Below are positions 22,577 through 40,064 of a stretch of 64,000 nt of DNA, piece after piece (positions within the stretch are counted from its first letter, which is position 1; each line of letters opens with the position of its first letter). The stretch covers positions 2,356,001-2,420,000 of the forward strand of contig NZ_LT629737.1 of the NCBI RefSeq assembly GCF_900104765.1, given 5' to 3'. The notes under the pieces are model-generated. The model ran no database searches. It was not told the DNA's origin and saw only the letters and a program-made list of their open reading frames with translations. The translations under genes were made by a program, and so were the position numbers. Source of the stretch: Gillisia sp. Hel1_33_143. GTDB lineage: Bacteria; Bacteroidota; Bacteroidia; Flavobacteriales; Flavobacteriaceae.

Positions 22577-22621
22577 CTAATTTAAAAGTATGATGAGCTA
22601 TTATATGTAACATTTGTTACA
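22577..22621 (-). promoter_or_regulatory. Minus-strand use of the TGTAAC palindrome: candidate promoter of the nucleotidase-family gene
   Basis: From the centre of the palindrome at 22606-22621, 29.5 bp on the minus strand leads to TAAATTAG (22584-22577), one mismatch from TAnnTTTG. The spacing equals that of the plus-strand promoters of this regulon. The predicted transcript would start about 18 nt before the ATG at 22554, the leader length seen at 25916, 32961 and 40086. Confidence 0.5.
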
Positions 22622-22650
22622 CATTTAAGAACTTCTAATCTTTAGGTTTG
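22606..22650 (+). promoter_or_regulatory. Crp/Fnr-type operator and -7 element upstream of tsdA-like gene
   Basis: TGTAACATTTGTTACA (22606-22621) is a perfect 16-bp palindrome. Its centre is 29.5 bp before TAGGTTTG (22643-22650), a full TAnnTTTG match. This puts the operator near -41.5, the class II activator position. The leader to the ATG at 22742 is about 88 nt. It is one of five such arrangements in this window. Confidence 0.8.
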
Positions 22651-22741
22651 TTACTAATTTCGCTTATTAAACTTATCTTAGTATTACCATCTTTTATGTT
22701 AAGAAATTTATTTTAATGGGTGACGATTAATTTCAAGAGCG

Positions 22742-23773
22742 ATGACTATTTATAGAAAATTAAGCAAATCGATTGCCTTTTTATTCGGATCAGTATTAGC
22801 AATAATAGTGGTGATATTCTTAGGTATTTATCTTTATAGTTCAGATCCTTACTTGTTTAAAGATAAGCAAATACTTGCGGAAAACTGGCAGCCAAAAGAT
22901 GTAGAAGCTGAAATGAGTGCTGGATTTGTAGATTCTCAAATTAAATATGGATATCAGCTTATTTCTGAATCTCCAAAATACATGGGACCTCAGGCAAAAG
23001 ATCCTGAAATGAGATATGCAGGTAATAATCTTGCATGTATGAATTGCCATTTAAAAGCGGGAACGCAGCCGGGTTCTGCTTCTTGGATAGGAGTTACCAA
23101 TAGATTTCCTCAGTTTAGAGGTAGATCTAATAGCGATGGAACTATAGAGGATAGAATTAATGGATGCATGCAACGCAGTATGAATGGAGACAAGCTGCCA
23201 ACAGATTCAAAAGAAATGAAAGCCATAGTTGCTTATATGGAATGGTTAACTGAAGATATGCCTGCAGAACGAGAAAAGGATTTCAAAGGATATGCTAAAG
23301 TTGAACTTCCCACTGTTGCTGTTGATTTTGATAAAGGTAAAGATCTATTTTCTAAAGAATGTACAGTGTGTCACGGAGATAACGGACAGGGCGTAAAATT
23401 GGCAGATTCTACAAAAGGATACCAATACCCTCCACTTTGGGGCCCGGATAGTTATAATAATGGTGCAGGAATGCACAGAGTAATCACCGCTGCACAATTT
23501 ATTAAAGGAAATATGCCTTTTGGACAAGCAACCTGGAAGTCTCCAAAACTTACAGATGAAGAGGCTTACAATCTGGCAGGGTATATCAATAGTTTCAGTA
23601 GACCTCAAAAAGAAGGTTTAAGTAAAGATTATCCAGATCTTAAACTAAAACCAGTTTCTACACCTTACGGCCCTTACGCAGATAATTTTTCGGTAGAACA
23701 ACATCAATTTGGACCGTTTCAGCCTATAATGGACTACTACAAACAGAAATATGATATAACTAAAAACAAATGA
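22742..23773 (+). CDS. tsdA: TsdA-like dihaem cytochrome c (probable thiosulfate dehydrogenase), membrane anchored
   Basis: This is a 343-residue protein. An N-terminal membrane helix (about 12-33) is followed by two cytochrome c domains with haem motifs C99-MN-C102-H103 and C207-TV-C210-H211. The segment YAGNNLACMNCHLKAG, together with RINGCMQRSMNG, is the thiosulfate dehydrogenase pattern. Cys142 in the latter is the likely axial ligand of the first haem. TsdA couples two thiosulfates to tetrathionate, or works in reverse. The stop overlaps the start of the porin-like gene (ATGA), and the operator at 22606-22621 suggests sulfur-responsive control. Confidence 0.82.
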   Translation: MTIYRKLSKSIAFLFGSVLAIIVVIFLGIYLYSSDPYLFKDKQILAENWQPKDVEAEMSAGFVDSQIKYGYQLISESPKYMGPQAKDPEMRYAGNNLACMNCHLKAGTQPGSASWIGVTNRFPQFRGRSNSDGTIEDRINGCMQRSMNGDKLPTDSKEMKAIVAYMEWLTEDMPAEREKDFKGYAKVELPTVAVDFDKGKDLFSKECTVCHGDNGQGVKLADSTKGYQYPPLWGPDSYNNGAGMHRVITAAQFIKGNMPFGQATWKSPKLTDEEAYNLAGYINSFSRPQKEGLSKDYPDLKLKPVSTPYGPYADNFSVEQHQFGPFQPIMDYYKQKYDITKNK

Positions 23774-25128
23774 TAAAGAAATTCTTCTTCCTTCTACTTC
23801 TAATTTTGTGTTTTCCTTCATTAATAATAGCTCAGGAAAATTCAGAAAATAAAAATCGAAGTGTCTTTTCAGGTCAAATTCGTAGTTATTACATGAATAC
23901 TGTAAATAAAGGATCTTTAAAAGATTTTAAAGCCTTGGCAGTAGGAGGTAAATTAAAATATCAATATTTATTTAATGAGAATCTAGAGTTTGGAGTAGCA
24001 GTTTATAATTCAACAAATTTAGGTTTACAAGATCTTACTAGTCCAGATTTGGCAACAGGGAAAGTGAGTAGGTATGAAGAAGGACTGTTTGATAGGTTAA
24101 ATTTAGATAACAAGACCATATTTATTTTAGGAGAGCTCTACGTAGATTATAGTTTGGAAAAACATTCTTTTAGTTTAGGTAGAATGAAGCTAAAATCTCC
24201 GTTGATAAACCCTCAGGATGGTAGAATGATCCCAAGTCTTTTTCAAGGCTTTATGTATAAGTTTGATCGAGATAAAAAGACTCATTTTCAAACCGGTATT
24301 TTTAATGCAGTAGCTCCTAGATCTACAGGGGAGTTTTATTCTATAGGAGAAAGTATAGGTACTTATGGAGCAGGTAGAAATTTTGAAGGAAAAGATTCGC
24401 AGTATGCGAATAACACCAATTCAGATTTTCTCATTATCTCGAGTGCAAATTTTAATCTTACCAAAGAGCTTAGTTTTGATACTTGGAATTATTACATAGA
24501 TAATGTTTCTAATTCATTTTATATCAAACCAAAGATTGCAGTAGCTCCTAGCGTAGATCTAGAAATGGAATGGTTGCATCAAAACAAGATTGGAAACGGA
24601 GGGAATGAAATAGATTCTTTAAGCTACTTTAGATCTAATACTTCAGATGTTTTAGGAATAAAGATGAAATATAAATGGGCGCAAAGTAATTCTTCTATTT
24701 CTTTAGCGTACGATAGGATCTTACCTCATGGTCAGTTTGTATTTCCTAGAGAATGGGGAAGAGAGTTTTTGTTCAGTTTTCAAAAGAGAGAACGTAGCGA
24801 GGGTACTGCAGATAATCATGCTTTAGTAATGTATTATGAAAATACATTTCCGCTACTAGATCCAAAATCTAAGATTCAAACTATTTTTAGCGTAGGCCAT
24901 CAATGGAAACCTTCTGTTCTAGATCCAAAATTGAATAAATATGCCGTTCCAGATTATACGCATGTTAATTTAGATATCTTCTTTTTCTTTGATAAAATAA
25001 AAAATCTTCAGCCGGAACTATTATTGGTGGCTAAATTTGCTAATGGAGATTTTCCTGATAATCCTAACTTTTATTTGAACAAAACAGATCTTTTTCATGC
25101 AGATCTGATTTTGAATTATAACTTTTAA
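23770..25128 (+). CDS. OprD-like outer-membrane porin
   Basis: This 452-residue protein has a signal peptide (cleavage near residue 21, SLIIA). The remainder alternates beta strands and turns and ends with Phe (LILNYNF), as in outer-membrane barrels. The segment SLGRMKLKSPLINPQDGRMIPSLFQG resembles the OprD-family pattern in which two strands bracket a conserved DxRMxP motif. Because it is translationally coupled to the TsdA-like gene, it may admit thiosulfate or release tetrathionate. The substrate is an inference from context. Confidence 0.75.
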   Translation: MIKKFFFLLLLILCFPSLIIAQENSENKNRSVFSGQIRSYYMNTVNKGSLKDFKALAVGGKLKYQYLFNENLEFGVAVYNSTNLGLQDLTSPDLATGKVSRYEEGLFDRLNLDNKTIFILGELYVDYSLEKHSFSLGRMKLKSPLINPQDGRMIPSLFQGFMYKFDRDKKTHFQTGIFNAVAPRSTGEFYSIGESIGTYGAGRNFEGKDSQYANNTNSDFLIISSANFNLTKELSFDTWNYYIDNVSNSFYIKPKIAVAPSVDLEMEWLHQNKIGNGGNEIDSLSYFRSNTSDVLGIKMKYKWAQSNSSISLAYDRILPHGQFVFPREWGREFLFSFQKRERSEGTADNHALVMYYENTFPLLDPKSKIQTIFSVGHQWKPSVLDPKLNKYAVPDYTHVNLDIFFFFDKIKNLQPELLLVAKFANGDFPDNPNFYLNKTDLFHADLILNYNF

Positions 25129-25208
25129 GAGCGAAGAACTTAAAAACATATAATTAGTAGGTTCAAAAAAATGGTAGTAATTTTAAACTGTTAACCAATA
25201 TATTATTC

Positions 25209-25841
25209 ATGATCGAATCTCTTACAGAGGCTTATTCCTTTATTTTTGAAAAAGAATTAATAGAAGAAATGGCGGAAGTTGGCCATCTAAAATCTATAAA
25301 AGAAGGAGAGAAAATAATTGAAATTGGCGATTTTGTTACCCATATGCCTTTACTTATTAGTGGGGCTATTAAGATCTTAAGAGAAGATAAGGATGGCGAT
25401 GAATTGTTGCTTTATTTTCTGGAAAGAGGGGATACTTGCGCTATGACGCTTTCATGCTGTTTAGGCGAAACAAAAAGTGAAATTCGTGCGGTTTCTGAGA
25501 AGCCTACAGAAATTATAATGATCCCTATAGAAAAGATGGAGGAGTGGATAGCAAAATATAAAACCTGGAGACATTTTGTTTTTGAAAGTTATCATTCTCG
25601 CCTTACCGAAATGTTGGATACTATAGATACTATTGCTTTTCTAAATATGGATGAACGGCTAATGAGGTATCTTCAAGATAAAGCAAAGATCAATCAAAAT
25701 GAATTACTTCAGGTAACCCACCAAGATATAGCTTATGATCTTCATACTTCAAGAGTTGTAATTTCTAGATTGCTTAAAAAATTAAAATTAGAAGGTAAAA
25801 TTGAGCTTCAAAGAAACAGTATTAAAGTGCTGTCTTTATAA
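25209..25841 (+). CDS. Crp/Fnr-family transcriptional regulator, candidate regulator of the sulfur cluster
   Basis: This is a 210-residue protein. A cyclic-nucleotide-binding-like beta-roll (about 15-115), a dimerisation helix (about 118-150) and a C-terminal winged helix with recognition segment TSRVVISRLLKKLK are visible. The beta-roll carries GDTCAMTLSCCLGE with Cys77, Cys83 and Cys84. There is no N-terminal Fe-S cluster Cys set as in Fnr. Cysteines at the effector site suggest thiol, persulfide or redox sensing. It lies 81 bp after the porin gene in the tsdA operon direction. It is the only Crp/Fnr protein in the window and the likely binder of the TGTAAC-N4-GTTACA palindromes. Confidence 0.88.
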   Translation: MIESLTEAYSFIFEKELIEEMAEVGHLKSIKEGEKIIEIGDFVTHMPLLISGAIKILREDKDGDELLLYFLERGDTCAMTLSCCLGETKSEIRAVSEKPTEIIMIPIEKMEEWIAKYKTWRHFVFESYHSRLTEMLDTIDTIAFLNMDERLMRYLQDKAKINQNELLQVTHQDIAYDLHTSRVVISRLLKKLKLEGKIELQRNSIKVLSL

Positions 25842-25849
25842 TTTTCATA

Positions 25850-25894
25850 TGTAACTATTGTTACTGTGCGCGCCGTGCTAAGTCTCTACTTTTG
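25850..25894 (+). promoter_or_regulatory. Crp/Fnr-type operator and -7 element upstream of tauE
   Basis: TGTAACTATTGTTACT (25850-25865) has its centre 29.5 bp before TACTTTTG (25887-25894), a full TAnnTTTG match. The inferred start is near 25899, leaving a leader of about 17 nt to the ATG at 25916. Confidence 0.8.
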
Positions 25895-25915
25895 TATAGA
25901 ATTAAAAATTGGTAA

Positions 25916-26716
25916 ATGGAATTGATAGATATTTTAGGTTACGTTGGAGCGTTTTTGATAGGTGGAGTTTTAGGTTTGATAGGTGGAGGAGGTTCCATCT
26001 TAACAGTTCCAATTTTAGTATATTTATTAGCGATCAACCCGGTTACCGCTACGGCATATTCCTTATTTGTAGTTGGATCTGCTTCTTTAGTTGGAGCTGG
26101 AAGAAATCTGCAAAAAGGCTTAGTTGAATTTAAAACAGCTATCTCCTTTGCCATTCCTGCTTTTATAGCTGTTTTTAGTACCAGAAAATTCTTAGTTCCT
26201 GCAATTCCTTCAGAAATTTTTACAATTGGCGGTTACATTCTTACTAAGAATATTGCGATCATGTTGTTTTTTGCCATTTTAATGTTGGCAGCCTCTTTTT
26301 CTATGATTGTTGATAGAAAGACACTTCTCGCAAATAAAGATGAAAATGCTAAGGCAAACTATAAGGCATTGATTCCTTTAGGCTTTATTACAGGAATTAT
26401 TACCGGACTTGTGGGTGCAGGAGGTGGATTTATCATCATTCCTATACTCGTAATCTTGGCAAAACTACCAATGAAAAAGGCAGTGGGAACTTCGCTATTT
26501 ATTATTGCTATCAATTCTCTTATAGGCTTTTTAGGAGATCTTGGAAATGTAGATATAGATTGGATCTTCTTACTTCTTTTCACCGGAATAGCAATTGTTG
26601 GAATTTTTGTAGGTATATATCTTGCCAATTTTATAGATGGGAAAAAATTGAAAAAGGCTTTTGGATGGTTTGTATTAATCATGGGCTTTTATATTATCTA
26701 TAAAGAAATCTCTTAA
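25916..26716 (+). CDS. TauE/SafE family membrane transporter (sulfite/sulfur-compound exporter)
   Basis: This 266-residue integral membrane protein has about eight helices and the two internal family repeats, each with a glycine-rich signature (GVLGLIGGGGSILTVPIL near residues 20-37 and GIITGLVGAGGGFIIIPIL near 160-178). TauE/SafE proteins export sulfite, sulfoacetate or related anions, or take part in their uptake. The operator immediately upstream ties it to thiosulfate and persulfide genes. Export of toxic sulfite made by the persulfide dioxygenase at 33867 is a reasonable role. Confidence 0.88.
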   Translation: MELIDILGYVGAFLIGGVLGLIGGGGSILTVPILVYLLAINPVTATAYSLFVVGSASLVGAGRNLQKGLVEFKTAISFAIPAFIAVFSTRKFLVPAIPSEIFTIGGYILTKNIAIMLFFAILMLAASFSMIVDRKTLLANKDENAKANYKALIPLGFITGIITGLVGAGGGFIIIPILVILAKLPMKKAVGTSLFIIAINSLIGFLGDLGNVDIDWIFLLLFTGIAIVGIFVGIYLANFIDGKKLKKAFGWFVLIMGFYIIYKEIS

Positions 26717-26729
26717 TTTTAAAGATAGG

Positions 26730-27179
26730 ATGATAACTGAAAAAGATTGGATGTATGTTTTACTTCAATTTATCCTGTTTGGTGTTTACTTAATAGAAAT
26801 TGATCTTATTACTATAAGTATGCCCGAATGGTTTAAATTGGGGGTATTGACTTTTTCAGTCTTAGGAATTATAATAATAGTACTAAGCTTTTATCAATTG
26901 GGAAGCAACTTATCCCCATTTCCTTCTCCTGTTAAGAATGCAGATTTAATAACAACCGGAATATTTAAATATTTAAGACACCCTATCTATACTGGAATAT
27001 TATTAATCTTGTTCTCTGTCGCTATTTATAATACTTCGGAATATAAACTAATTATAAGTATACTTCTTTTAATTTTATTTCAGTTTAAATCAAAATATGA
27101 AGAATCTAGGTTGATTGCCAATTTTGAGAACTATAAAGATTATATGAAAGACACGGGTAAATTCATTCCTAAATTATAA
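26730..27179 (+). CDS. Isoprenylcysteine carboxyl methyltransferase-like membrane protein
   Basis: This 149-residue protein has four membrane helices. The C-terminal part shows TTGIFKYLRHPIYTGIL and KYEESRLIANFENYKDYM, the SAM-binding and Glu-rich hallmarks of the ICMT/PEMT-type membrane methyltransferases. It starts 13 bp after tauE and so probably shares its promoter. The substrate is unknown. Methylation of a lipid, thiol or small sulfur compound are all possible, and the sequence alone does not choose. Confidence 0.8.
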   Translation: MITEKDWMYVLLQFILFGVYLIEIDLITISMPEWFKLGVLTFSVLGIIIIVLSFYQLGSNLSPFPSPVKNADLITTGIFKYLRHPIYTGILLILFSVAIYNTSEYKLIISILLLILFQFKSKYEESRLIANFENYKDYMKDTGKFIPKL

Positions 27180-27237
27180 AACATCTTTATAAAAATATAT
27201 AACGAATTCGGCTAAAATTTAGAATTAAAAAAAAACG

Positions 27238-27855
27238 ATGCAAAATAGAGCTACTCACTGGGAAAATATTTATCAAACAAAAGATATAAGTACGGTGAGC
27301 TGGTACCAGCCAACGCCGTCAACATCTTTAGAATTAATAGCTGATTGTAATTTGGATAAGGATGCGGCTATCATAGATATTGGGGGAGGAGATAGTTTTT
27401 TACCAGATCATCTTCTTGCGCTAGGGTATACAAATATCACCGTGTTAGATATTTCTGAAAAGGCTTTATCTAATGCTAAATTACGTTTAGGTGAAGATGC
27501 TAGTAAAATTAAATGGATTCTGGAAGATGTAACTAAATTTTGTCCTAAGCAAAAGTATGATCTATGGCATGATAGGGCTGCTTTTCATTTTTTTAGAGAT
27601 GATAAAGAGATAGAAGCCTATGTAAAGTTAGTTTCTGAGAATTTAATAGATAATGGAAAAGCAATTATAATTACATTTTCTAACAATGGTCCAACAAAAT
27701 GTAGTGGTATTGAGATCTCTCAATACTCTAAAGATGAGCTTTCACAAGTATTTGCTCAGGATTTATTCATAGATAAATGTATAAATGTAAACCATACTAC
27801 TCCTTCCAATGCTGTTCAAAATTTCACCTTTTGCACCTTCAGAAAGAAAGGTTGA
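27238..27855 (+). CDS. Class I SAM-dependent methyltransferase
   Basis: This 205-residue protein begins MQNRATHWENIYQTKDISTV, the typical start of small bacterial methyltransferases of the Methyltransf_25/thiopurine-methyltransferase-like group. SAM-binding motif I is at about residues 42-52 (IIDIGGGDSFL), the acidic end of strand 2 is VLDIS, and motif IV is DLWHDRAAFHFF. Similar proteins in bacteria methylate toxic oxyanions or thiols, but that is family knowledge and not visible here. It lies 58 bp after the ICMT-like gene in the same direction. Confidence 0.82.
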   Translation: MQNRATHWENIYQTKDISTVSWYQPTPSTSLELIADCNLDKDAAIIDIGGGDSFLPDHLLALGYTNITVLDISEKALSNAKLRLGEDASKIKWILEDVTKFCPKQKYDLWHDRAAFHFFRDDKEIEAYVKLVSENLIDNGKAIIITFSNNGPTKCSGIEISQYSKDELSQVFAQDLFIDKCINVNHTTPSNAVQNFTFCTFRKKG

Positions 27856-27890
27856 GGTCTTAGAGAATCGTACATTCGTAATCATAAGTT

Positions 27891-27927: not shown

Positions 27928-27937
27928 TTGAACATTT

Positions 27938-28969
27938 ATGAATTTCAAAACTTTTGGTAAATTACCTTCAGAAGATAGATTACAGAAAATAGAGCAAGTT
28001 GATAATTATAGGGAGGGTGAATTTAAGAATGTAGAAACAACTTCACTAAATCCTGACAATGTTTCTACTTTTAAGATGCTCCGTGCTTTTTATAATAAAC
28101 CAAAAGATGTTAAACCAGATAGAGAAATTCCTAATAAGAAAATAGATCTAAGTTCTATTGAAGCAGAAAAACCAACAATTGTTTGGTTTGGACATTCTTC
28201 TTATCTAATTACTCACAACAATTTTAAGATCTTGGTAGATCCTGTTTTTAGCGGTAATGCTTCTCCGGTTAATATCTTCGGAAAATCATTTTCTGGAGCA
28301 GATAATTATGAGGTTGAAGACCTTCCTGAAATTGATCTTTTAATACTTACCCATGATCATTATGATCATCTGGATTTTCCTACCATAGAAAAACTTCACG
28401 CAAAAACTAAGAAAATAATTACCTCTTTGGGTGTAGCTTCTCATTTAGAATATTGGGGAGTTTTTCCAAATAAAATTACAGAGCTCAATTGGTGGGAATA
28501 TATAACGATCAATAAAAATTTAAAAATTACAGCAACTCCTGCCCGTCATTTTTCAGGAAGAGGATTTACAAGAGCAAAAACTTTGTGGTCATCCTTTGTG
28601 CTAGAATTAGATAGATATAAGATTTTTATTGGAGCAGATTCGGGGTATGACGATCAATTTAAAAGAATAGGAGCTCATTTTAAAGGTTTTGATATTGCAT
28701 TTCTGGAATGTGGGCAATACAGTGCACATTGGCCACAAATACATATGTTTCCCGAAGAAACCGTTAAAGCTGCGAAAGATCTAGATACTAAAATTGTATT
28801 CCCAGTTCACTGGGCTAAATTTATGCTTTCTACGCATCCTTGGAATCAATCTATCAAAAGATTTATTAAAGAGGCTGCAGTACAAGAGCAGGAATATATC
28901 GCTCCAATTATTGGCGAAAGTTATGTATTGGGTGAGAACTATATGCAAACCAATTGGTGGGATTTTTAA
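27938..28969 (+). CDS. MBL-fold metal-dependent hydrolase (UlaG/NAPE-PLD-like)
   Basis: This 343-residue protein has a metallo-beta-lactamase fold. The metal ligands are visible as LILTHDHYDHLD (HxHxDH, near residues 135-146), HFSGRG (near 205), GADSGYD (near 230) and a late HW. The N-terminal part of about 60 residues before WFGHSSYLI is typical of the group containing N-acyl-phosphatidylethanolamine phospholipase D and UlaG-like lactonases. The exact substrate cannot be told. It precedes the GNAT gene by 12 bp in the same direction. Confidence 0.83.
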   Translation: MNFKTFGKLPSEDRLQKIEQVDNYREGEFKNVETTSLNPDNVSTFKMLRAFYNKPKDVKPDREIPNKKIDLSSIEAEKPTIVWFGHSSYLITHNNFKILVDPVFSGNASPVNIFGKSFSGADNYEVEDLPEIDLLILTHDHYDHLDFPTIEKLHAKTKKIITSLGVASHLEYWGVFPNKITELNWWEYITINKNLKITATPARHFSGRGFTRAKTLWSSFVLELDRYKIFIGADSGYDDQFKRIGAHFKGFDIAFLECGQYSAHWPQIHMFPEETVKAAKDLDTKIVFPVHWAKFMLSTHPWNQSIKRFIKEAAVQEQEYIAPIIGESYVLGENYMQTNWWDF

Positions 28970-28981
28970 ACTTATACGTAT

Positions 28982-29380
28982 ATGAACTTTACTTTTACAT
29001 TTAATGAGATTCCAAATATTCAGGATATTATAACTATCTATGATACAGCTGTGCTTAAAAGACCAACAGAAAGTGCCGAGAGAATTGCAAAAATGTATGA
29101 GAATTCTAGTTTGATAATTGCTGCATGGCATGATGAAAAACTCATTGGAGTTGCCAGATCACTAACAGATTTTAGTTATTGTTGCTATCTCTCAGATCTT
29201 GCTATTCACCCCGAGTATCAAAAGCATGGAATTGGTAAAAAATTGATAGATCTTACCAAAAAGAAAATAGGGGATGAGTGTATGTTACTATTATTGTCAG
29301 TTCCAACGGCTATGGAATATTACCCGAAAGTTGGTTTTGAAAAAGTAGAAAATGGATTTATAATAAACCGTAAAAAATAA
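28982..29380 (+). CDS. GNAT family N-acetyltransferase
   Basis: This 132-residue protein has the acetyl-CoA pyrophosphate-binding motif HPEYQKHGIGKKLI (about residues 77-90) and the C-terminal beta strand with YYPKVGFEKVENGFII typical of single-domain GNATs. The acceptor is unknown. It sits between the MBL hydrolase and the halotyrosine-dehalogenase-like gene, with gaps of 12 and 6 bp, so the three are almost certainly cotranscribed. Confidence 0.87.
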   Translation: MNFTFTFNEIPNIQDIITIYDTAVLKRPTESAERIAKMYENSSLIIAAWHDEKLIGVARSLTDFSYCCYLSDLAIHPEYQKHGIGKKLIDLTKKKIGDECMLLLLSVPTAMEYYPKVGFEKVENGFIINRKK

Positions 29381-29386
29381 ATAGCG

Positions 29387-30100
29387 ATGTCTTCTTCATT
29401 TAAAATATCGAATTCAGAAAATAAAATTGAGATCAACGGTTTTGTTCATAAGCGTTACAACTCATTAGGTCTCGATCAAACAGAAATGCTTTCCAGATCT
29501 CAGAATTTTTTTGATAAGATGAATGTTAGAAGATCAATTAGAGAATTTTCAGATAGAGAAGTATCCAGAGAAATCATAGAAAATATTATCAGAACTGCTT
29601 CTACCGCGCCATCTGGAGCACATAAACAACCTTGGACGTTTTGTGCAGTTTCTAATCCGCTTATAAAATCCAAGATCCGTAAAGCTGCAGAACTTGAAGA
29701 GAAGGAGAATTATGAAAAGCGAATGAGTGAGCGATGGAAAGAAGATCTTCTAACTTTTGGTACCGATGCTAATAAACCTTTTCTAGAAAAAGCACCATGG
29801 CTTATAATAGCATTCAAGAAAGCTTATGAAATGGATGAGAAGGGCTCAAAACAAAATAATTATTATGTAAATGAATCTGTTGGTATTGCCTGCGGAATGT
29901 TAATTACTGCCATTCACAATGCCGGGCTGGTAACCTTAACGCATACTCCTAGTCCAATGAATTTCTTAACAACGGTACTAAATAGACCTGCCAACGAGCG
30001 TGCATTCTTACTTCTTCCTGTGGGTTATCCTGAAGATCCCTGCTATGTTCCAGACATAGAAAGAAAAGGATTAAGTGAAGTAAGTGAATTCTATGAATAA
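29387..30100 (+). CDS. Iodotyrosine deiodinase-like flavoprotein (nitroreductase superfamily)
   Basis: This 237-residue FMN-dependent protein contains RRSIREFSDREV, STAPSGAHKQPW, ESVGIACGMLITAIHNAGLVT, TPSPMNFL and LLPVGYP, the pattern of iodotyrosine deiodinase (IYD) and not of ordinary nitroreductases. The three residues that clamp the halotyrosine zwitterion in the human enzyme (Glu, Tyr four later, Lys twenty-one after the Tyr) are present as Glu105, Tyr109 and Lys130. Reductive dehalogenation of iodo-, bromo- or chlorotyrosine is therefore likely. Halotyrosines are plausible in seawater. It closes the MBL-GNAT-IYD unit. Confidence 0.85.
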   Translation: MSSSFKISNSENKIEINGFVHKRYNSLGLDQTEMLSRSQNFFDKMNVRRSIREFSDREVSREIIENIIRTASTAPSGAHKQPWTFCAVSNPLIKSKIRKAAELEEKENYEKRMSERWKEDLLTFGTDANKPFLEKAPWLIIAFKKAYEMDEKGSKQNNYYVNESVGIACGMLITAIHNAGLVTLTHTPSPMNFLTTVLNRPANERAFLLLPVGYPEDPCYVPDIERKGLSEVSEFYE

Positions 30101-30202: not shown

Positions 30203-30625
30203 CTAAAGTTCTATACTCAAATACCCTTTTTTCTGAAGTTCAAAATCATACAAAATTCCGTTTGATACAACTTCTAATTCTCTAGGCAGATCTTTGGCTT
30301 TCACTCCGAATTTTTTCATAGAAAATCCACAAACCACAATTTTTACATTCTCGTTTTTGGCAGCTTCTAAAAATGGCTTCATGTTATCTTTATCTGTTAA
30401 TTCTTTTACAGTTTTCCCACAAATAATAACCTGAAACTCGCCATATTTTTCCTGATCTTGTTCTTGAAGCGCTTTTGCAGTTAATAGTATAGGTTTTAAT
30501 TGAGGTACATTTTTAGTGAGAACTACGTAGTTGTTCTTATGGTTATCCAAAGTAGATTTTTGATCTTGAGCAGATGCTGTAAACAGAGCTAAAATTATTG
30601 CAAATGTTGATAATAGCGTTTTCAT
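30203..30625 (-). CDS. Secreted DsrE-family protein
   Basis: This 140-residue protein has a cleavable signal peptide (MKTLLSTFAIILALFTASA) and a DsrE-like alpha/beta domain. Cys99 in IVVCGFSMKKFGV lies at the position of the sulfur-carrying Cys of DsrE/TusD proteins, and Cys69 is in VIICGKT. DsrE proteins relay persulfide sulfur. A secreted version would act in the periplasm. Its ATG overlaps the stop of the DoxX gene (30622-30625), and both lie behind the TGTAAC operator at 31509. This is the third gene of a small secreted protein-DoxX-DsrE operon. Confidence 0.85.
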   Translation of the reverse strand: MKTLLSTFAIILALFTASAQDQKSTLDNHKNNYVVLTKNVPQLKPILLTAKALQEQDQEKYGEFQVIICGKTVKELTDKDNMKPFLEAAKNENVKIVVCGFSMKKFGVKAKDLPRELEVVSNGILYDFELQKKGYLSIEL

Positions 30626-31029
30626 ATTATTTGTCTTTGTGTATTATTAAAATCATTTAGTATAAAAAAAAGTAAGCCACCCAAAATGGCTATATTTTTG
30701 AATAATGGGCCTAGGGTGGTCATTTGACCCACCTGCACCGTAAGTGTTATTGGTATAAGTATTAAAGCTAGTATAATGGCTGAGATCTTAGTTTTAAACC
30801 CAATCATTAAGCTGAATCCTGCAATAAGCATAATTATTCCAGAGACTATAATTGGATATGTGGGTTCTCCAAAGAGATATCCCAAAGCTTTAAACCTTGC
30901 CTGATTCATTTTGTAAATAGTTCGCTCTACGTATATTAAATGACTTGAGCTGGCAACTAAGAAGATGCCGCTTAGCATAACTCTAAATAGTACCACCGAG
31001 TTATGATTCACCCAAAGTTTAGGTTTCAT
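30622..31029 (-). CDS. DoxX-like membrane protein
   Basis: I prefer the ATG at 31029 (MKPKLWVNHNSVVLFRVM). An ATG at 31068 would add 13 hydrophobic residues of uncertain value. The protein has four membrane helices with GIFLVASSSHLIY near the N-terminus, GIIMLIAGFSLMIGFKTK and LGPLFKNIAILGGLLFFIL, as in the DoxX/DoxD superfamily. DoxD and DoxA form thiosulfate:quinone oxidoreductase in archaea. Here a similar membrane role, passing electrons from the secreted sulfur carrier to quinone, is an inference. It is cotranscribed with the DsrE protein. Confidence 0.78.
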   Translation of the reverse strand: MKPKLWVNHNSVVLFRVMLSGIFLVASSSHLIYVERTIYKMNQARFKALGYLFGEPTYPIIVSGIIMLIAGFSLMIGFKTKISAIILALILIPITLTVQVGQMTTLGPLFKNIAILGGLLFFILNDFNNTQRQII

Positions 31030-31123
31030 AATTAGTGAAATTGATAAATTAATAAATGGAAGAGCCATATAATCTTAGTACAGATTATATATAGGTCTAC
31101 CGTAATTTTAACTGAATAAATAA

Positions 31124-31474
31124 CTAAACTTGAGGAGGGGGATAAAAATGGTTTATAAAGCCATCTGTACGCGAACTGGCTTTATAATGGTATTTTTGAA
31201 AATTAAGTATGGTTTGGACTGATATAAAAACTGGTTGTGGTACTTGTAGCGCAATTGGGCAGGATACTTCTACAGGGATAACTTTATAATTCTTATCAGT
31301 TATATTTTGATGATCAAAATTTAAAGTTTTGATCTTAGCTTTAGGACATGTGCTCTTAACCATTGCAATCCTAGCGCCTTCAAAATTTGATATGGCAATG
31401 CCAACATCCATCGCAATTAATTTGCTAAGGAAGATCACAGTTAATATTATGGAAAGAGTGTTCTTTTTGCACAT
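31124..31474 (-). CDS. Small secreted protein of unknown function, first gene of a sulfur operon
   Basis: This 116-residue protein has an N-terminal signal-like segment (MCKKNTLSIILTVIFLSKL). The mature part has two Cys-Pro pairs (KSTCPKAK and EVSCPIAL) and ends in HFYPPPQV. I do not recognise the family. It resembles small Cys-containing envelope proteins found beside transporters in Bacteroidota, but that is only an impression. It is the first gene behind the operator at 31509-31524. The -7 element (31487-31480) lies so close that the transcript would start only 1-2 nt before the ATG, meaning leaderless. Confidence 0.7.
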   Translation of the reverse strand: MCKKNTLSIILTVIFLSKLIAMDVGIAISNFEGARIAMVKSTCPKAKIKTLNFDHQNITDKNYKVIPVEVSCPIALQVPQPVFISVQTILNFQKYHYKASSRTDGFINHFYPPPQV

Positions 31475-31479
31475 TGTGG

Positions 31480-31524
31480 CAAATATAGGTGCTCAGTTCT
31501 AAGATTTATGTAACCAATGTTACA
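31480..31524 (-). promoter_or_regulatory. Crp/Fnr-type operator and -7 element upstream of the DoxX-DsrE operon
   Basis: TGTAACCAATGTTACA (31509-31524) is a perfect palindrome. On the minus strand its centre is 29.5 bp before TATATTTG (31487-31480), a full TAnnTTTG match. The inferred start near 31475 almost coincides with the ATG at 31474. Confidence 0.8.
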
Positions 31525-32895: not shown

Positions 32896-32940
32896 TGTAA
32901 CATAAGTTACTGTCATAAGTAATTTGAATGTGTATTTTTG
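32896..32940 (+). promoter_or_regulatory. Crp/Fnr-type operator and -7 element upstream of the persulfide dioxygenase operon
   Basis: TGTAACATAAGTTACT (32896-32911) has its centre 29.5 bp before TATTTTTG (32933-32940), a full TAnnTTTG match. The inferred start is near 32945, about 17 nt before the TTG start at 32961. The short leader agrees with the other regulon members. Confidence 0.8.
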
Positions 32941-32960
32941 CTTAAGAATTAATAAAATAG

Positions 32961-33851
32961 TTGGAAAAGTATTTAAAGATCATACAAGAATCGTTTTCAG
33001 GATATTTTAATTACCTGATCACAGAAATCACAAATCCGTCATGGACAAATTATTTGTATTGGCTACTTGCGGTTTCAATTTTAGTATGGAGTTTAGAAAT
33101 TATATTGCCTTGGAGAGAAAAGCAAAAGATTTTTAGAAAAGGATTTTGGTTAGATTCATTTTATATCCTCTTTAATTTTTTCTTATTCTCTTTAATAGGA
33201 TATAACGCTCTTTCAAATGTTGGTGTAGAATTATTCAATGATTTTCTAGGGCTTTTTGAAATAGAAAATATTGTAGCTTTTAAAGTTCAAGATTTTCCGG
33301 TTTGGGCTCAATTGCTCATCATGTTTGTGATTGCAGATTTTGTGCAATGGAACGTGCATAGGCAATTACATAAACGAGCTTGGCTTTGGGAATTCCATAA
33401 AGTGCACCATAGTGTAAAAGAAATGGGGTTTGCCGCTCAGTTTAGATTTCACTTTATGGAGACAATTATTTATAAGACAGTGCAATATATTCCTTTAGCA
33501 ATGATAGGCTTTGGAATTCAGCAATTCTTTATAGTACATATGTTTGCGGTTTTTGTTGGCCACTTAAATCATGCAAATGTAGGTTGGAATTATGGCTGGT
33601 TAGGCTACATTTTCAACAACCCAAGGATGCATATTTGGCATCATTCGAAAGAATTACCAAACGATCATTCTTTTGGGATGAACTTCGGATTATCGCTTAG
33701 CATTTGGGATTATCTCTTTGGAACGGCCTATATTCCGAAGAGTGGGAAAAATATAATTATAGGTTTTAATGGAGATGAAGATTTTCCTGAAGATTTCGGA
33801 AATCAGATGTTATTTCCATTCAAAAAGAACAGAACAAATAAAGTAGAATAA
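32961..33851 (+). CDS. Sterol desaturase/fatty-acid hydroxylase family membrane protein
   Basis: This 296-residue protein has four to five membrane helices and the di-iron histidine boxes HRQLHKRAW, HKVHHSVKE, HLNHANVGW and MHIWHHSKE. It starts at TTG (32961), since the next in-frame ATG is about 120 residues later. The 17-nt distance from the predicted transcription start supports this. The family hydroxylates or desaturates lipids using O2. It is encoded 15 bp before the persulfide dioxygenase and behind the sulfur operator, so its product may be a sulfur-conditional lipid change. That link is inferred. Confidence 0.85.
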   Translation: MEKYLKIIQESFSGYFNYLITEITNPSWTNYLYWLLAVSILVWSLEIILPWREKQKIFRKGFWLDSFYILFNFFLFSLIGYNALSNVGVELFNDFLGLFEIENIVAFKVQDFPVWAQLLIMFVIADFVQWNVHRQLHKRAWLWEFHKVHHSVKEMGFAAQFRFHFMETIIYKTVQYIPLAMIGFGIQQFFIVHMFAVFVGHLNHANVGWNYGWLGYIFNNPRMHIWHHSKELPNDHSFGMNFGLSLSIWDYLFGTAYIPKSGKNIIIGFNGDEDFPEDFGNQMLFPFKKNRTNKVE

Positions 33852-33866
33852 CAAAAAGGTAAAAAG

Positions 33867-35207
33867 ATGAAGATAAAACAATTTAAAGATGCTCCTTTAG
33901 CACATTATTCTTATGCAATTATAAGTAATGGAGAAATGGCTTTGGTAGATCCTAGCAGAAATCCAATGCAGTATTACAAATTTGCTGAAGAGAATAATGC
34001 TAAGATAGTAGCGGTTTTTGAAACGCATCCACATGCCGATTTCGTTAGTAGTCATTTACAAATTAGCGAACAAACGGGTGCAAAGATCTATGTAAGTAAA
34101 CTTTTAGGAGTAGATTATACCCACACATCTTTTGATGATGGAGATACTTTAAAAATGGGAGATATCACTTTTAAAGCCATTAATACTCCTGGACATTCTC
34201 CAGATAGTATTACCATAGTTGCAGAGCAAGGTGGAAACACAGCTTTATTTACCGGTGATACCTTATTTATTGGTAATGTTGGGAGACCAGATCTTAGAGA
34301 AAATGCTGGGAACATGAAGGCGAAGAGAGTAGAATTGGCAAAAGATATGTACAATACTATTCAAACTAAATTTAATGAGCTGCCAGATGGCGCCTTGGTT
34401 TATCCGGCGCACGGAGCTGGGTCTTTATGTGGTAAGAATATGAGCGATGCTGCATCTAGTACTCTTGGTAACGAAAGACAAGGAAACTGGGCTTTTAAAG
34501 ATCAAACAGAAGAAGAATTTGTAGAAGAGATCTTAAAAGATCAGCCATTTATCCCTTCATATTTCGGATTCAATGTAGACATCAACAAAACAGGAGCGGT
34601 TAACGATAAGATCGCTAAAGCAGAAGTTAAGTTGAATCTTTTGGTTGAAGATGTGGAAGAAGATGTTACTGTAGTAGACGTGAGAGATGGAGATGCTTAT
34701 AAAGCAGGTCATTTACCTAACGCTATCAATATTATGGCAAGAGCCGAAGGTGATAAATATGAAACTTGGTTAGGAGCCATCATAGAGCCTAAAGAGGCGT
34801 TTTATCTTGTTGTGAATAGTGTAGAGGATATCGAAGATATTTTAGAGCGTACAGCTAAAATTGGATACGAAAAACAATTAAAAGGCATAGTTACTTTAGC
34901 TGATTCAGTTTCAGAAAAATCTGAAGATCTTGATGTAAAAGATTTTGGAGCGCATCCAGATAAGTATACCATTGTAGATATTAGAAATGCAAGTGAGGTT
35001 GCAGAAGGTAAGATCTTTGAAAGCGCAATTGCAATTCCTTTAAACGAATTGAGAGATCGTTACAAAGAGATCCCAACAGAGCATCCAATAGTGGTGCACT
35101 GTGCCGGAGGATATAGATCTGCAGCAGGAAGCAGTATTCTTGAAAATAAATTTAAATCTACTACTGTCTATGATCTTAGTGAAGCGATCAAACAATTTTC
35201 AGAATAA
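33867..35207 (+). CDS. Persulfide dioxygenase-rhodanese fusion (ETHE1-like MBL fold plus two rhodanese domains)
   Basis: This 446-residue protein has three domains. About 1-245 is a glyoxalase II-like MBL domain with the ETHE1-type ligands THPHADFVSSH, FTGDTLFIGNVGRPDLRE and YPAHGAGSLCG. About 260-345 is a rhodanese domain that has lost its Cys (YLVVNSVED). About 355-446 is a second rhodanese with catalytic Cys412 in HCAGGYRS. The enzyme oxidises glutathione or low-molecular-weight persulfide to sulfite, while the rhodanese moves sulfane sulfur. It shares the operator at 32896 with the desaturase-like gene. Confidence 0.92.
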   Translation: MKIKQFKDAPLAHYSYAIISNGEMALVDPSRNPMQYYKFAEENNAKIVAVFETHPHADFVSSHLQISEQTGAKIYVSKLLGVDYTHTSFDDGDTLKMGDITFKAINTPGHSPDSITIVAEQGGNTALFTGDTLFIGNVGRPDLRENAGNMKAKRVELAKDMYNTIQTKFNELPDGALVYPAHGAGSLCGKNMSDAASSTLGNERQGNWAFKDQTEEEFVEEILKDQPFIPSYFGFNVDINKTGAVNDKIAKAEVKLNLLVEDVEEDVTVVDVRDGDAYKAGHLPNAINIMARAEGDKYETWLGAIIEPKEAFYLVVNSVEDIEDILERTAKIGYEKQLKGIVTLADSVSEKSEDLDVKDFGAHPDKYTIVDIRNASEVAEGKIFESAIAIPLNELRDRYKEIPTEHPIVVHCAGGYRSAAGSSILENKFKSTTVYDLSEAIKQFSE

Positions 35208-35230
35208 TTTTATTGTTTTCTAGAGGAGTT

Positions 35231-35264
35231 AAACCCGAAATGTTCTTGACATTTCGGGTTTTTC
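35231..35264 (+). terminator. Terminator of the persulfide dioxygenase operon
   Basis: AAACCCGAAATG (35231-35242) pairs perfectly with CATTTCGGGTTT (35250-35261) around a 7-nt loop, ending in a short T-run. It lies 24 bp after the stop codon. Confidence 0.88.
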
Positions 35265-35369
35265 ATTTTATAAAATTTCAGATTTGATTGAAGGAATCTC
35301 AAAAAATACTTCAACATTTTTCTATATTTACAACATTCGTTTGAAAAGCGGACTTTGAAATAAAGATTT

Positions 35370-35855
35370 ATGGAAAAAAAGTATAAAGTCTCGGTGAATG
35401 ATTCATACGACTATAAATTCACCCAAGATCAGATCAATTCATTAGACACACAAGAACTCAATGCTACTCAGTTTCATATTTTAGAAGAGCACCAATCTTT
35501 TAAAGCAGAAATTCTCAAAGCAGATTTCTATAATAAATCCTACACCGTTAAGATCAACTCTAATATCTATGAGGTTGCTATTACCAATGAGCTCGATATG
35601 CTTATTGCAGATATGGGACTTTCCCTTGGATCTGCTCAGCAAATAAATGATATTAAAGCACCAATGCCGGGTCTAATTCTAGATGTAAATGTTAAAGAAG
35701 GAGATGAGGTAAAAGAAGGTGATTATCTTATTGTTTTGGAAGCCATGAAAATGGAGAACACACTTACTTCTCCCGGAGACGGAGTTATTAAAAAGATTAG
35801 TGTGGAGAAAGGCCAGACAGTAGAAAAAAATCAGTTGTTAATTGAATTAGAATAA
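35370..35855 (+). CDS. Biotin carboxyl carrier protein (acyl-CoA carboxylase subunit)
   Basis: This 161-residue protein has a C-terminal biotinyl domain (APMPGLILDVNVKEGDEV...) with biotinylated Lys127 in EAMKMEN. The N-terminal 85 residues form a beta-rich linker domain as in propionyl-CoA carboxylase carriers of Bacteroidota. A TATATTTA element at 35332-35339 is one base off the -7 consensus. The biotin carboxylase and carboxyltransferase genes follow, so the three form a heteromeric carboxylase. Confidence 0.92.
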   Translation: MEKKYKVSVNDSYDYKFTQDQINSLDTQELNATQFHILEEHQSFKAEILKADFYNKSYTVKINSNIYEVAITNELDMLIADMGLSLGSAQQINDIKAPMPGLILDVNVKEGDEVKEGDYLIVLEAMKMENTLTSPGDGVIKKISVEKGQTVEKNQLLIELE

Positions 35856-35861
35856 TTGAAG

Positions 35862-37301: not shown

Positions 37302-37394
37302 TTAGAGCGACGTTCTGAACTTATTTCAGAGTCTCAATGACCGCGAAAACTTCGAATATTTAGATCAAACAAAAATTAAAATCATAATTAAATT

Positions 37395-38936
37395 ATGAGT
37401 CAGAATATAGAAAAATTGAATGATAAAGTTGCTCAGGCACATTTGGGTGGGGGAGAAAAAAGAATTGCTAAGCAACATGAAAAGAAAAAATTAACAGCAA
37501 GAGAACGCGTAGATTATTTATTGGATGAAGGTTCTTTTGAAGAAATAGGAATTTTAGTTACGCATAGAACTACAGATTTTGGAATGGAAAAACAACAGAT
37601 CTATGGAGATGGTGTTGTTACCGGTTATGGTACCATTCACGGGAGATTAGTATATGTTTTTGCACAAGATTTTACCGTATTTGGTGGAGCCTTGTCTGAA
37701 ACTCATGCCGAAAAGATCTGTAAAGTAATGGATCATGCCATGAAAGTAGGAGCTCCAATTATTGGATTGAACGATTCTGGAGGAGCTCGTATTCAAGAAG
37801 GAGTTAGATCTCTTGGCGGATATGCAGATATCTTCTACAGAAATGTTCAAGCATCGGGGGTCATTCCTCAAATTTCTGCAATTATGGGGCCTTGTGCCGG
37901 TGGAGCCGTTTATTCTCCTGCCATGACAGATTTTACCTTGATGGTAGAAGATACAAGTTATATGTTCGTTACCGGGCCTAACGTGGTAAAAACGGTTACT
38001 AATGAAGAAGTAACTTCAGAAGAATTAGGAGGAGCAAGTACACATTCTACAAAATCTGGGGTAACGCATATAACTTCATTTAACGATATTACCTGCTTAG
38101 AAGACATCAAGAAATTGATGAGCTATTTGCCTCAAAATAATAGGGAAACCACTGCAAAATTACCTTATGAATTGGGTGATGAAATTAGAGAGTCTTTAGA
38201 TTCTATGGTGCCAGATAGCGCCAATAAACCTTATGATATGCATGAGGTGATTAAAGGTATTATAGATGCAGATTCTTTTTATGAGATCCATAAAGATTAT
38301 GCAGAGAATATCATTGTTGGTTTTGCTCGATTGGGAGGAAGAAGTATTGGTATTGTAGCCAATCAGCCAATGAGCCTTGCCGGAGTACTAGACGTAGATT
38401 CTTCAAAAAAAGCAGCAAGATTCACCAGGTTCTGTGATTGTTTTAATATTCCACTTTTAGTATTAGTAGATGTTCCTGGCTTCTTGCCGGGTACAGATCA
38501 AGAATGGAATGGGATCATTTTGCATGGTGCTAAGCTACTTTACGCTTTAAGTGAAGCAACAGTGCCAAGAGTTACTGTTATTACTAGAAAAGCTTATGGG
38601 GGAGCCTATGATGTTATGAATTCTAAACACATTGGAGCAGATCTAAACTTTGCATGGCCAACAGCAGAGATTGCGGTGATGGGAGCGAAGGGTGCCAGTG
38701 AGATCATTTTCAGAAAAGAGATCCAAGAAGCGGAGAATCCAGAAGTTAAACTTTCTGAAAAGGAAGCAGAATATGCAGAGAAATTTGCAAACCCGTTTGA
38801 AGCTGCAAAACGTGGATTTATAGATGAGGTTATTATGCCTCGAGATACCAGAAAGAAATTATTGAAAGCATTTAGCATGCTGGAGAATAAGAAAGTAATG
38901 AGAATTGATAGAAAGCACGGGAATATTCCGCTTTAA
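37395..38936 (+). CDS. Acyl-CoA (propionyl-CoA) carboxylase carboxyltransferase beta subunit
   Basis: This 513-residue carboxyltransferase has both crotonase-fold halves. The acyl-CoA oxyanion region is [14 protein letters not shown] and [16 protein letters not shown] in the first half. The biotin-side [25 protein letters not shown]-like segment and [13 protein letters not shown] are in the second. Length and motifs match propionyl-CoA carboxylase beta. It transfers CO2 from carboxybiotin to propionyl-CoA, the substrate step before methylmalonyl-CoA mutase at the left edge of the window. Confidence 0.92.
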
Positions 38937-38969
38937 GAAATTATTACTTATTAGTTAGAATAAATATTT

Positions 38970-39036
38970 GCAGCCAGACTTTTAGTTGAATTCTTTGTTT
39001 TTAAGAGATTCTTCTCAAAGTCTGGCCGCATTTTTT
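38970..39036 (+). terminator. Long stem-loop after the carboxylase genes
   Basis: GCCAGACTTT (38973-38982) is complementary to AAAGTCTGGC (39017-39026). The flanking TGC and GCA extend the stem with one mismatch. The 34-nt loop is longer than in normal terminators, and a T6 run follows (39031-39036). It is probably a terminator but an attenuator of the next gene is possible. Confidence 0.6.
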
Positions 39037-39086
39037 GTTTGAAAACGGAATAATCGTTTTATTAGTTTAAATATTCAAGTTGACTT

Positions 39087-39986
39087 ATGCATAAATTCAA
39101 TAAAATAGTAGCTGTAGATAATACGAAACTTCAGGAAAACGCCATAGATGAATTGAAGAAATACAGTGAAGGCAAAGTTGAAATTCATAATGATTATCCT
39201 CTTACAAATGCAGAAATTATAAAACGTATTGGTGATGCTGAAGCAGTGCTAGTATCTTGGCATACTCAGATTAGTGAAGAGGTTATTGCTGCATGCCCTA
39301 ATTTGAAATATATAGGCATGTGTAGTACTTTATTCAACGAAGAATCTGCCAATGTTGCTGTGAACTTTGCGCGACAAAATGGAATAGAAGTCACAGGAAT
39401 TAATGATTATGGAGATCCTGGAGTAGCAGAGTATATTATTTCAACGTTGATACATCTGCTCCATGGTTTTGGTGAAAAGCAATGGAGAGAAATGCCGGTT
39501 GAACTTACCAATAGAAAAATAGGAATTATAGGTCTAGGTGTAACTGGGAAGTTACTTGCAAAATGTCTTCTGCCATTTGGTGCAGACCTATATTACTTCA
39601 GTAAGAGCAGAAAAAAAGACTGGGAAGAAAAAGGTGTTAAATATCTTAGTTTAGAGGAGTTGCTGAACACTTCAGAGATTATAAGCATTCATCTCCCTAA
39701 AAATGTACAATTATTAAATGAAAGAGAATTTGAAGTTTTGGGTTCTGGTAAAATTTTGGTCAATACTTCTTTAGGTTTGCCTTTCAACGAAGAAGCCTTA
39801 AAAAACTGGATAAAAGATTCTTCGAATTATGCAATTTTTGATGGTGATGCTAAAAATGCGCTAGACGGAAGAATATTAAAGAATAAAAATATAATCTTTT
39901 CAAAAAAAAGTGCTGGCTGGTCTGCAGAAACGGAAATTCGTCTATCTAAAAAAGTTGTTCAAAATGTCAAGAATTATTTGAAATAG
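39087..39986 (+). CDS. D-2-hydroxyacid dehydrogenase family protein lacking the usual catalytic residues
   Basis: This 299-residue protein has the two-domain fold and NAD-binding motif GIIGLGVTGKLLAKCL. The sites that normally carry the catalytic Arg (NT-x-RG) and His (TPH-x-AG) read NTSLG (Leu229) and SKKSAGW (Lys274), and the acidic residue segment is also altered. It may bind NAD and a keto or hydroxy acid without normal turnover, or use another chemistry. It lies between the carboxylase operon and the YeeE pair, with no operator of its own seen. Confidence 0.8.
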   Translation: MHKFNKIVAVDNTKLQENAIDELKKYSEGKVEIHNDYPLTNAEIIKRIGDAEAVLVSWHTQISEEVIAACPNLKYIGMCSTLFNEESANVAVNFARQNGIEVTGINDYGDPGVAEYIISTLIHLLHGFGEKQWREMPVELTNRKIGIIGLGVTGKLLAKCLLPFGADLYYFSKSRKKDWEEKGVKYLSLEELLNTSEIISIHLPKNVQLLNEREFEVLGSGKILVNTSLGLPFNEEALKNWIKDSSNYAIFDGDAKNALDGRILKNKNIIFSKKSAGWSAETEIRLSKKVVQNVKNYLK

Positions 39987-40019
39987 TTCACCATTCATGT
40001 TAAGTTTCCTTTATTGTAG

Positions 40020-40064
40020 TGTAACAAATGTTACTTCAATAATCGATAGAATACCTTTTCTTTG
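40020..40064 (+). promoter_or_regulatory. Crp/Fnr-type operator and weak -7 element upstream of the YeeE/YedE pair
   Basis: TGTAACAAATGTTACT (40020-40035) has its centre 29.5 bp before TTTCTTTG (40057-40064), one base off TAnnTTTG. The inferred start is near 40069, about 18 nt before the ATG at 40086. The weaker -7 element fits activator dependence. Confidence 0.75.

Follow-up and report, generated by a model that had tools for sequence, protein, structure and literature searches.

A putative Crp/Fnr-superfamily activator and its conserved operators at sulfur genes of Gillisia and related Flavobacteriaceae

Among the sulfur-type genes of Gillisia sp. Hel1_33_143, a member of the mainly marine family Flavobacteriaceae, stands a gene for a regulator of the Crp/Fnr superfamily, and around it lie five copies of one palindrome, TGTAAC-N4-GTTAC(A/T), each followed at the same distance by a -7 element, TAnnTTTG. 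The window that contains them, i.e., the whole stretch of DNA that was analysed, comprises 64,000 nucleotides (assembly GCF_900104765.1, contig NZ_LT629737.1, positions 2,356,001 to 2,420,000 of the forward strand). An earlier note, made from the letters of this DNA, had proposed that palindromes, regulator and genes together form one unreported thiosulfate and persulfide regulon. The features concerned, in window coordinates, are these:

20938..22554, minus strand: SoxB-like metallophosphoesterase, candidate divergent target (Pfam Metallophos and 5_nucleotid_C)
22577..22584, minus strand: TAAATTAG, a -7 element with one mismatch that may act divergently, towards the SoxB-like gene, 29.5 base pairs (bp) from the centre of the 22606 operator
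22606..22621, no strand assigned: operator TGTAACATTTGTTACA, between the SoxB-like gene (minus) and the TsdA-like cytochrome gene (plus)
22643..22650, plus strand: -7 element TAGGTTTG, behind the 22606 operator at a distance of 29.5 bp from its centre
22742..23773, plus strand: TsdA-like dihaem thiosulfate dehydrogenase (PF21342; solved thiosulfate dehydrogenase 4wqc, E 3e-40)
23770..25128, plus strand: outer-membrane porin, OprD family (domain search)
25209..25841, plus strand: Crp/Fnr-superfamily regulator; its recognition helix is S181-R-V-V-I-S-R187, and its sole cysteines are C77, C83 and C84
25850..25865, plus strand: operator TGTAACTATTGTTACT, directly after the stop codon of the regulator gene
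25887..25894, plus strand: -7 element TACTTTTG, behind the 25850 operator
25916..26716, plus strand: TauE/SafE sulfite-exporter-family protein (PF01925)
26730..27179, plus strand: ICMT/PEMT-type methyltransferase (domain search)
27238..27855, plus strand: class I methyltransferase (domain search)
30203..30625, minus strand: DsrE-family protein (PF02635)
30622..31068, minus strand: DoxX-family membrane protein (PF07681)
31124..31474, minus strand: small protein, first gene of the DoxX operon (similar arrangement at locus L001)
31480..31487, minus strand: -7 element TATATTTG, behind the 31509 operator
31509..31524, minus strand: operator TGTAACATTGGTTACA, in minus-strand letters (pattern search)
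32896..32911, plus strand: operator TGTAACATAAGTTACT (pattern search)
32933..32940, plus strand: -7 element TATTTTTG, behind the 32896 operator
32961..33851, plus strand: fatty-acid-hydroxylase-superfamily membrane protein (PF04116)
33867..35207, plus strand: persulfide dioxygenase-like protein, MBL fold and rhodanese (structure matches 3tp9, 3r2u and ETHE1 4chl)
40020..40035, plus strand: operator TGTAACAAATGTTACT (pattern search)
40057..40064, plus strand: -7 element TTTCTTTG, one mismatch, behind the 40020 operator
40086..40643, plus strand: YeeE/YedE (TsuA-type) half-transporter 1 (PF04143; solved TsuA 8j4c/6leo, a short match of 52 residues)
40647..41060, plus strand: YeeE/YedE half-transporter 2 (PF20398, PF04143)

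A pattern search of the full 64 kb with TGTAACNNNNGTTACW returned matches at 22606, 25850, 31509, 32896 and 40020 only, the five that the earlier note had listed, and 100 dinucleotide shuffles of the window returned none, which argues that the palindrome is not random-sequence noise. The claim of identical placement was likewise confirmed: at all five sites the centre of the palindrome lies 29.5 bp from the first base of the -7 element, four of these elements being exact (TAGGTTTG, TACTTTTG, TATATTTG and TATTTTTG) and the fifth, TTTCTTTG, having one mismatch. The operator has the core GTA-N8-TAC, and 22 bases separate its GTTAC from the -7 element. A further palindrome in the window, at 54639 and with one mismatch, has no -7 element at 29.5 bp. 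The genome-wide search that the earlier note had suggested (one contig, 3,475,961 bases) found the exact palindrome in 8 places, 5 of them inside the window, compared with one forward and one reverse match for the reversed pattern. Sulfur-type genes, or genes beside them, lie downstream of all 8, and 7 of the 8 have the -7 element at 29.5 bp (5 exact, 2 with one mismatch).

The earlier list of genes behind the five window sites stood as to its sulfur-type targets, but the gene it had called desaturase-like belongs to the fatty-acid-hydroxylase superfamily (PF04116). The small protein of the DoxX operon has no match in Pfam or NCBIfam. The SoxB-like protein, whose gene is perhaps a further member of the regulon, matches TIGR04486 (SoxB) best in NCBIfam, at 277.9 bits and thus below the cut-off of 550; its gene and that of the TsdA-like protein stand back to back across the 22606 operator. 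The regulator gene starts 80 bp after the porin gene and, because this gap is so short, may share the TsdA-porin transcription unit. Genes for an MBL-fold hydrolase, an acetyltransferase and a nitroreductase (27938-30100) follow close behind the TauE-methyltransferase genes and may share their unit.

Beyond the window, the regulon extends to a sulfide:quinone oxidoreductase (SQR), rhodaneses, a second dioxygenase, a second DoxX operon and a DUF302 gene. The palindrome at 347862 has the second small protein-DoxX-DsrE operon on one side and the DUF302 gene on the other, that at 708682 is upstream of the SQR gene (E 4e-106 against solved mitochondrial enzymes), and that at 710977 is upstream of a DUF983 gene, behind which come genes for rhodanese and cytochrome c (DUF302, DUF983 and rhodanese assigned by Pfam). 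The small protein-DoxX-DsrE arrangement thus occurs twice, each copy with its own operator (L001 208-1474 and window 30203-31474). When the full promoter pattern was allowed up to three mismatches in the same genome, 30 matches were obtained as against 16 for the reversed control, and sites with three mismatches were therefore set aside as mostly noise. The better matches included 3397746, at two adjacent rhodanese genes, and 1584513, at a second persulfide dioxygenase-like gene; the site at 347900, with two mismatches, is the candidate for the DUF302 gene's own operator, and one at 710426, with three, ends ~20 bp upstream of a rhodanese start. A two-mismatch site at 3447999 was dropped, as it falls where a trypsin/PDZ (HtrA-like) gene ends. 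At 703670 (L198) a weak candidate operator has cytochrome bd subunit I on one side and a small protein and a TonB-dependent receptor on the other.

The same sites recur in related genomes, with the 29.5-bp spacing conserved across the family. Within the genus the palindrome is present in 15 of 16 genomes, the window genome counted. Across 299 genomes of the family the palindrome alone was found in 248, a count to be read beside a reversed control that is frequent too, the pattern being short; with TAnnTTTG 8 to 36 bases behind it, it was found in 174, compared with 24 for the reversed control (as read from the table of matches). Among the matches listed, 124 of 150 palindrome/-7 pairs had exactly the spacing of the window, where chance would give any one spacing 1 in 29. 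A regulator match at E <= 1e-15, in some cases a weak one, was obtained in 255 of the 299 genomes, and the full pattern occurred in 171 of these 255 versus 3 of the 44 without a match (Fisher 1e-14), an association inflated by the many small or incomplete genomes among the regulator-less ones; the three that carry the pattern are 73, 84 and 87% complete. In a sample of 247 genomes of the phylum the pattern was present in 24; of these, 21 are among the 99 genomes that have a regulator match, and the other 3 belong to the 148 that have none.

The neighbourhoods of the regulator in relatives gave a sharper view of the spacing. The scan took in every gap from 4 to 45, allowing one mismatch, in 39 usable regions that had been picked for the regulator (L161 alone proved to be without it). 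A gap of 22 yielded 92 sites in 36 of these regions, while the 39 gaps other than 21-23 had a mean of 1.3 and a maximum of 4. The first gene after these 92 sites encodes TauE (21), a persulfide dioxygenase-like protein (21), SQR (10), a rhodanese (8), a TolC-like outer-membrane efflux protein (6), SulP (5), YeeE (3), a peroxiredoxin (3), cytochrome c (2), cytochrome bd (2) or, once each, the regulator itself, a thioredoxin, a hydroxylase-like protein, a heavy-metal-associated domain and DUF983; one first gene could not be named and 5 sites had no gene behind them. Family names were checked with Pfam on examples, and these counts, like the other counts of genes behind sites given below, are partly circular, as they come from BLAST against a set drawn from this genome's own regulon, with the SulP, peroxiredoxin, thioredoxin, TolC, heavy-metal-associated and CydA references taken from regulon neighbours in relatives. 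In a set selected by the pattern rather than the regulator, such genes follow 28 of the 40 palindromes that have a perfect -7 element at 29.5 bp and 6 of the 10 whose -7 element has one mismatch, versus 11 of the 67 lacking the element. The usual -33 element is TTG, and it seems to be missing here, since TTG occurs 15 to 25 bp upstream of the -7 element at only 3 of the 92 sites. Two of the relatives' operators are upstream of cytochrome bd subunit I (PF01654; L149 14145 and L156 2031); cytochrome bd is sulfide-tolerant, and placement of an operator before its genes would fit.

That a Crp/Fnr gene lies inside the cluster was borne out by matches to PF00027 (42.4 bits) and PF13545 (37.9 bits), both above the gathering score, and by fold matches to CRP, NtcA and FNR. 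The protein reaches no NCBIfam subfamily cut-off: it was rejected as CRP (57.8 bits against 266), as FNR (20.2 against 228, with three cysteines and not the four-cysteine iron-sulfur set) and as NtcA (48.4 against 244.95), and also as a persulfide repressor of the ArsR/CsoR type, only Crp domains having been found. Membership of CRP is marked by its cyclic AMP pocket residues, and where CRP has its cyclic-nucleotide cassette, GELGLF, the window regulator has TCAMTLSCC, a loop that holds the only cysteines of the protein, C77, C83 and C84. T76, C77 and C83 are present in 39 of 39 regulator sequences, as are R182, V183, S186 and R187 of the recognition helix. This helix, S-R-V-V-I-S-R, aligns with S-T-R-V-T-V-T-R of NtcA, and the pairing of GTA-N8-TAC sites with an R-V-x-x-S-R helix fits DNA recognition of the NtcA kind. 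Regulator and site are also close neighbours: in 48 of 62 loci a site starts within the stretch from 30 bp upstream to 150 bp downstream of the regulator stop codon (46 of 60 once each of two pairs of identical regulators is reduced to a single entry), and 34 of the 48 start 3 to 14 bp past the stop, as in the window.

A further tie between protein and operator came from residue 183: among 100 homologues from 98 fetched loci, 62 have V there and 38 have E. Half-sites were counted only at sites before an open reading frame matching the reference set; excluded were two loci where V- and E-type regulators occur together and one that has no regulator. Beside V-type regulators the half-site had A (as in TGTAAC) in 186 of 202 cases and G (as in TGTGAC) in 9; beside E-type regulators A was found in 22 of 46 and G in 24 (V versus E, Fisher 1.6e-13). 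Averaging by genus, which limits the counting of relatives, left mean G frequencies of 0.03 in 42 V genera and 0.52 in 5 E genera, a difference reached in 0 of 100000 permutations. Nor does the difference go back to one split, because both types, with countable sites, occur in at least three sampled families (f1, f3 and f4). E-type sites are mostly asymmetric: in 16 of 23 the distal half is TGTAAC and the proximal half GTCAC. The idea that the E class uses a clean TGTGAC-N4-GTCAC operator was abandoned, as such an operator has a -7 element in range in only 4 of 247 genomes. In two loci (L292 and L139) V183 and E183 paralogues lie within 7 kb of each other in the same genome. There, 9 bp after the E-type stop, stands TGTGAC-N4-GTCAC, or TGTGAT-N4-GTCAC (one mismatch each in palindrome and -7 element), with no known target gene found directly behind these E-type operators, and the six plus-strand sites around the V-type genes read TGTAAC-N4-GTTAC (4), TGTTAC-N4-GTTAC (1) and TGTAAC-N4-GTAAC (1).

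Co-occurrence, the site at the stop codon, the NtcA-like helix and the covariation make the 25209 protein the most likely reader of the operators, and the proposal of a single regulon with its regulator inside the cluster is thereby supported genome-wide, family-wide and by covariation. Very probably the protein is a dedicated class II activator of a sulfide, persulfide and thiosulfate regulon. From the sites, their spacing, conservation and linkage, and the covariation, we infer binding, activation and the start site as follows. A dimer of the regulator would bind TGTAAC-N4-GTTACA, with its NtcA-like GTA-N8-TAC core, and in each recognition helix R182 and V183 would read a half-site. The site centre keeps a fixed distance upstream of the -7 element, as at class II promoters, and since that distance is 29.5 bp, the operator would be centred at ~-41.5, the start being placed from the -7 element; the class II Crp/Fnr geometry near -41.5 that the earlier note had proposed is supported by the spacing in the genome and in the family. 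The bound regulator would take the place of the -33 element and recruit RNA polymerase. The genes so activated would serve thiosulfate import or oxidation (TsdA, the YeeE pair and perhaps the SoxB-like protein), sulfide oxidation (SQR), the carriage and oxidation of sulfane sulfur (rhodaneses, DsrE/DoxX and persulfide dioxygenases) and, probably, sulfite export (TauE).

Several observations weigh against this scheme. No site lies behind the gene in 14 of the 62 regulator loci, the -7 element at 710977 fits poorly, and the exact pattern is absent from 84 of the 255 family genomes and 78 of the 99 phylum-sample genomes with a regulator match. Two genomes (G531 and G539; loci L217, L218 and L237), of the same class as the source genome, carry the pattern at the right or a one-base-off spacing with no regulator match at E <= 1e-15; a third pattern-bearing genome with no match, G547, is the only one of the three outside the class, and its spacing differs. 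G-type sites near V-type regulators (the 9 of 202 half-sites; L156, L164 and L291) make the residue-183 code a preference and not a strict rule. As for the loop, every one of the 100 fetched homologues has C77, while C83 (in 78) is absent from 22 and C84 (in 58) from 42, and 13 of the 100 are V-type with C-G-G, i.e., C77 kept and G at 83 and 84. In the AlphaFold model the predicted local distance difference test is ~60 around the cysteines, so the loop is unreliable there, and with such low confidence the model did not settle the nature of the pocket. One C-G-G homologue of the V type (L284) still adjoins rhodanese and thioredoxin genes.

The nature of the signal is the point on which another explanation survives best. 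We give about an even chance to sulfane sulfur, the likeliest signal: C77, C83 and C84, in place of the cyclic-nucleotide-binding cassette, could be persulfidated or bridged. The choice of persulfide sensing follows from the conservation of the cysteine loop and from the precedent of ArsR-type sulfane-sulfur regulators, in which a tetrasulfide bridge forms between two cysteines (PMC12423496), and is not itself evidence of sensing. A serious possibility, if something short of an even one, is that the same regulator at the same sites responds to a thiosulfate, tetrathionate or sulfite ligand or to oxygen or redox state, its cysteines forming a disulfide or being structural. The sites in relatives that precede cytochrome bd, peroxiredoxin and thioredoxin genes would fit redox too, and C83 and C84 are not universal; on the other side stand the invariant C77, the three cysteines in the one loop that replaces the cassette, the many targets that handle sulfane sulfur, and the lack of a four-cysteine iron-sulfur set.

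It is improbable that the protein is a repressor, acting from an operator that overlaps the -33 region to keep polymerase out until sulfur lifts the block, as in the ArsR/CsoR types. Regulators of the SoxR/sHdrR group, ArsR-type sensors of sulfane sulfur, are indeed described as repressors (again PMC12423496), but a single spacing across genera is expected of class II contact with polymerase and is not needed by a repressor, and as just 3 of the 92 sites have TTG at -33, the promoters look activator-dependent. Still harder to sustain is the idea that another Crp/Fnr paralogue reads the palindromes. The genome has five HTH_Crp_2 matches and at least one more Crp-like open reading frame, met by chance in L205, so the list is perhaps incomplete; yet R-V-x-x-S-R is found in the 25209 protein alone among the five, the other four helices reading P-E-S-L-I-R, T-R-A-V-V-N-R, T-E-S-L-I-R and P-E-T-I-S-R, the sixth (T-S-V-S-L-S-R) differs too, and covariation and linkage favour the 25209 family. 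Chance, or the base composition of an AT-rich genome, is to our minds practically out of the question: the palindrome alone does turn up randomly, one or two reversed-control matches per genome being common, but the empty shuffles, the spacing peak and the 174 versus 24 of 299 genomes refute such an origin.

Returning to the class II activator, it may with equal plausibility prove or not prove to represent a Bacteroidota family of its own, i.e., sulfur-sensing Crp/Fnr proteins with a cysteine loop for the cyclic-nucleotide pocket, class II activation of a whole pathway, and paralogue regulons kept apart by V183 or E183 versus A or G. The sulfide/thiosulfate switch is apparently common to much of Flavobacteriaceae, and what is already in hand is a candidate regulator, an operator and a family-wide target list. 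Residue 183 and its half-site base are a mutation pair by which the regulator-operator link can be tested directly, and the operator can be used for finding new sulfur genes, such as those of the small protein, DUF302, DUF983 and the hydroxylase-like protein. Among the open-access papers listed by the searches, none described a Crp/Fnr regulator of sulfur oxidation in Bacteroidota, and within those bounds the earlier word "unreported" is supported.

The closest solved sequence, 3dv8, a Crp/Fnr protein of Eubacterium rectale (E 5.5e-17), came first by E-value among the fold matches, and its cysteines align with C77 and C83; its recognition helix, R-E-x-x-T-R, differs, identity in the fold alignment is 24%, and we know of no sulfur link for it. 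CRP and FNR share with the 25209 regulator the domain order cNMP_binding and HTH_Crp_2, and their class II geometry resembles the operator placement here, but the regulator falls below both NCBIfam cut-offs and is without the FNR cysteine set. FisR is an activator of sulfide genes, and the two-component system NreBC is another (PMC9918477). NtcA binds GTAN8TAC at ~-41.5, 22 nucleotides from the -10 box at one promoter (PMC3898017). It is thus like the 25209 regulator in its superfamily, the R-V of its recognition helix, its core and its class II position, but it responds to 2-oxoglutarate and serves nitrogen genes of cyanobacteria, whereas the 25209 regulator has a cysteine loop, the TAnnTTTG -7 element and sulfur-gene surroundings. 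Nearest in their targets are SqrR, BigR, YgaV, SoxR and sHdrR, described (PMC12423496) as controlling sqr, pdo, rhodanese and related genes via conserved cysteines, and CstR, a sulfur regulator of similar targets going by a reference title in PMC9774590; these are ArsR- or CsoR-type proteins (SoxR and sHdrR repressors), unlike the 25209 protein, a member of the Crp/Fnr superfamily with its operators in an activator position. If our reading is right, a one-component activator joins a field whose best-described sulfane-sulfur regulators are of the ArsR and CsoR types, with a logic opposite to that of the ArsR/CsoR repressors of other phyla. A Crp/Fnr class II regulon is in itself a known kind of system; the novelty here would lie in which pathway is controlled, in the cysteine loop and in activation as the mode of control.

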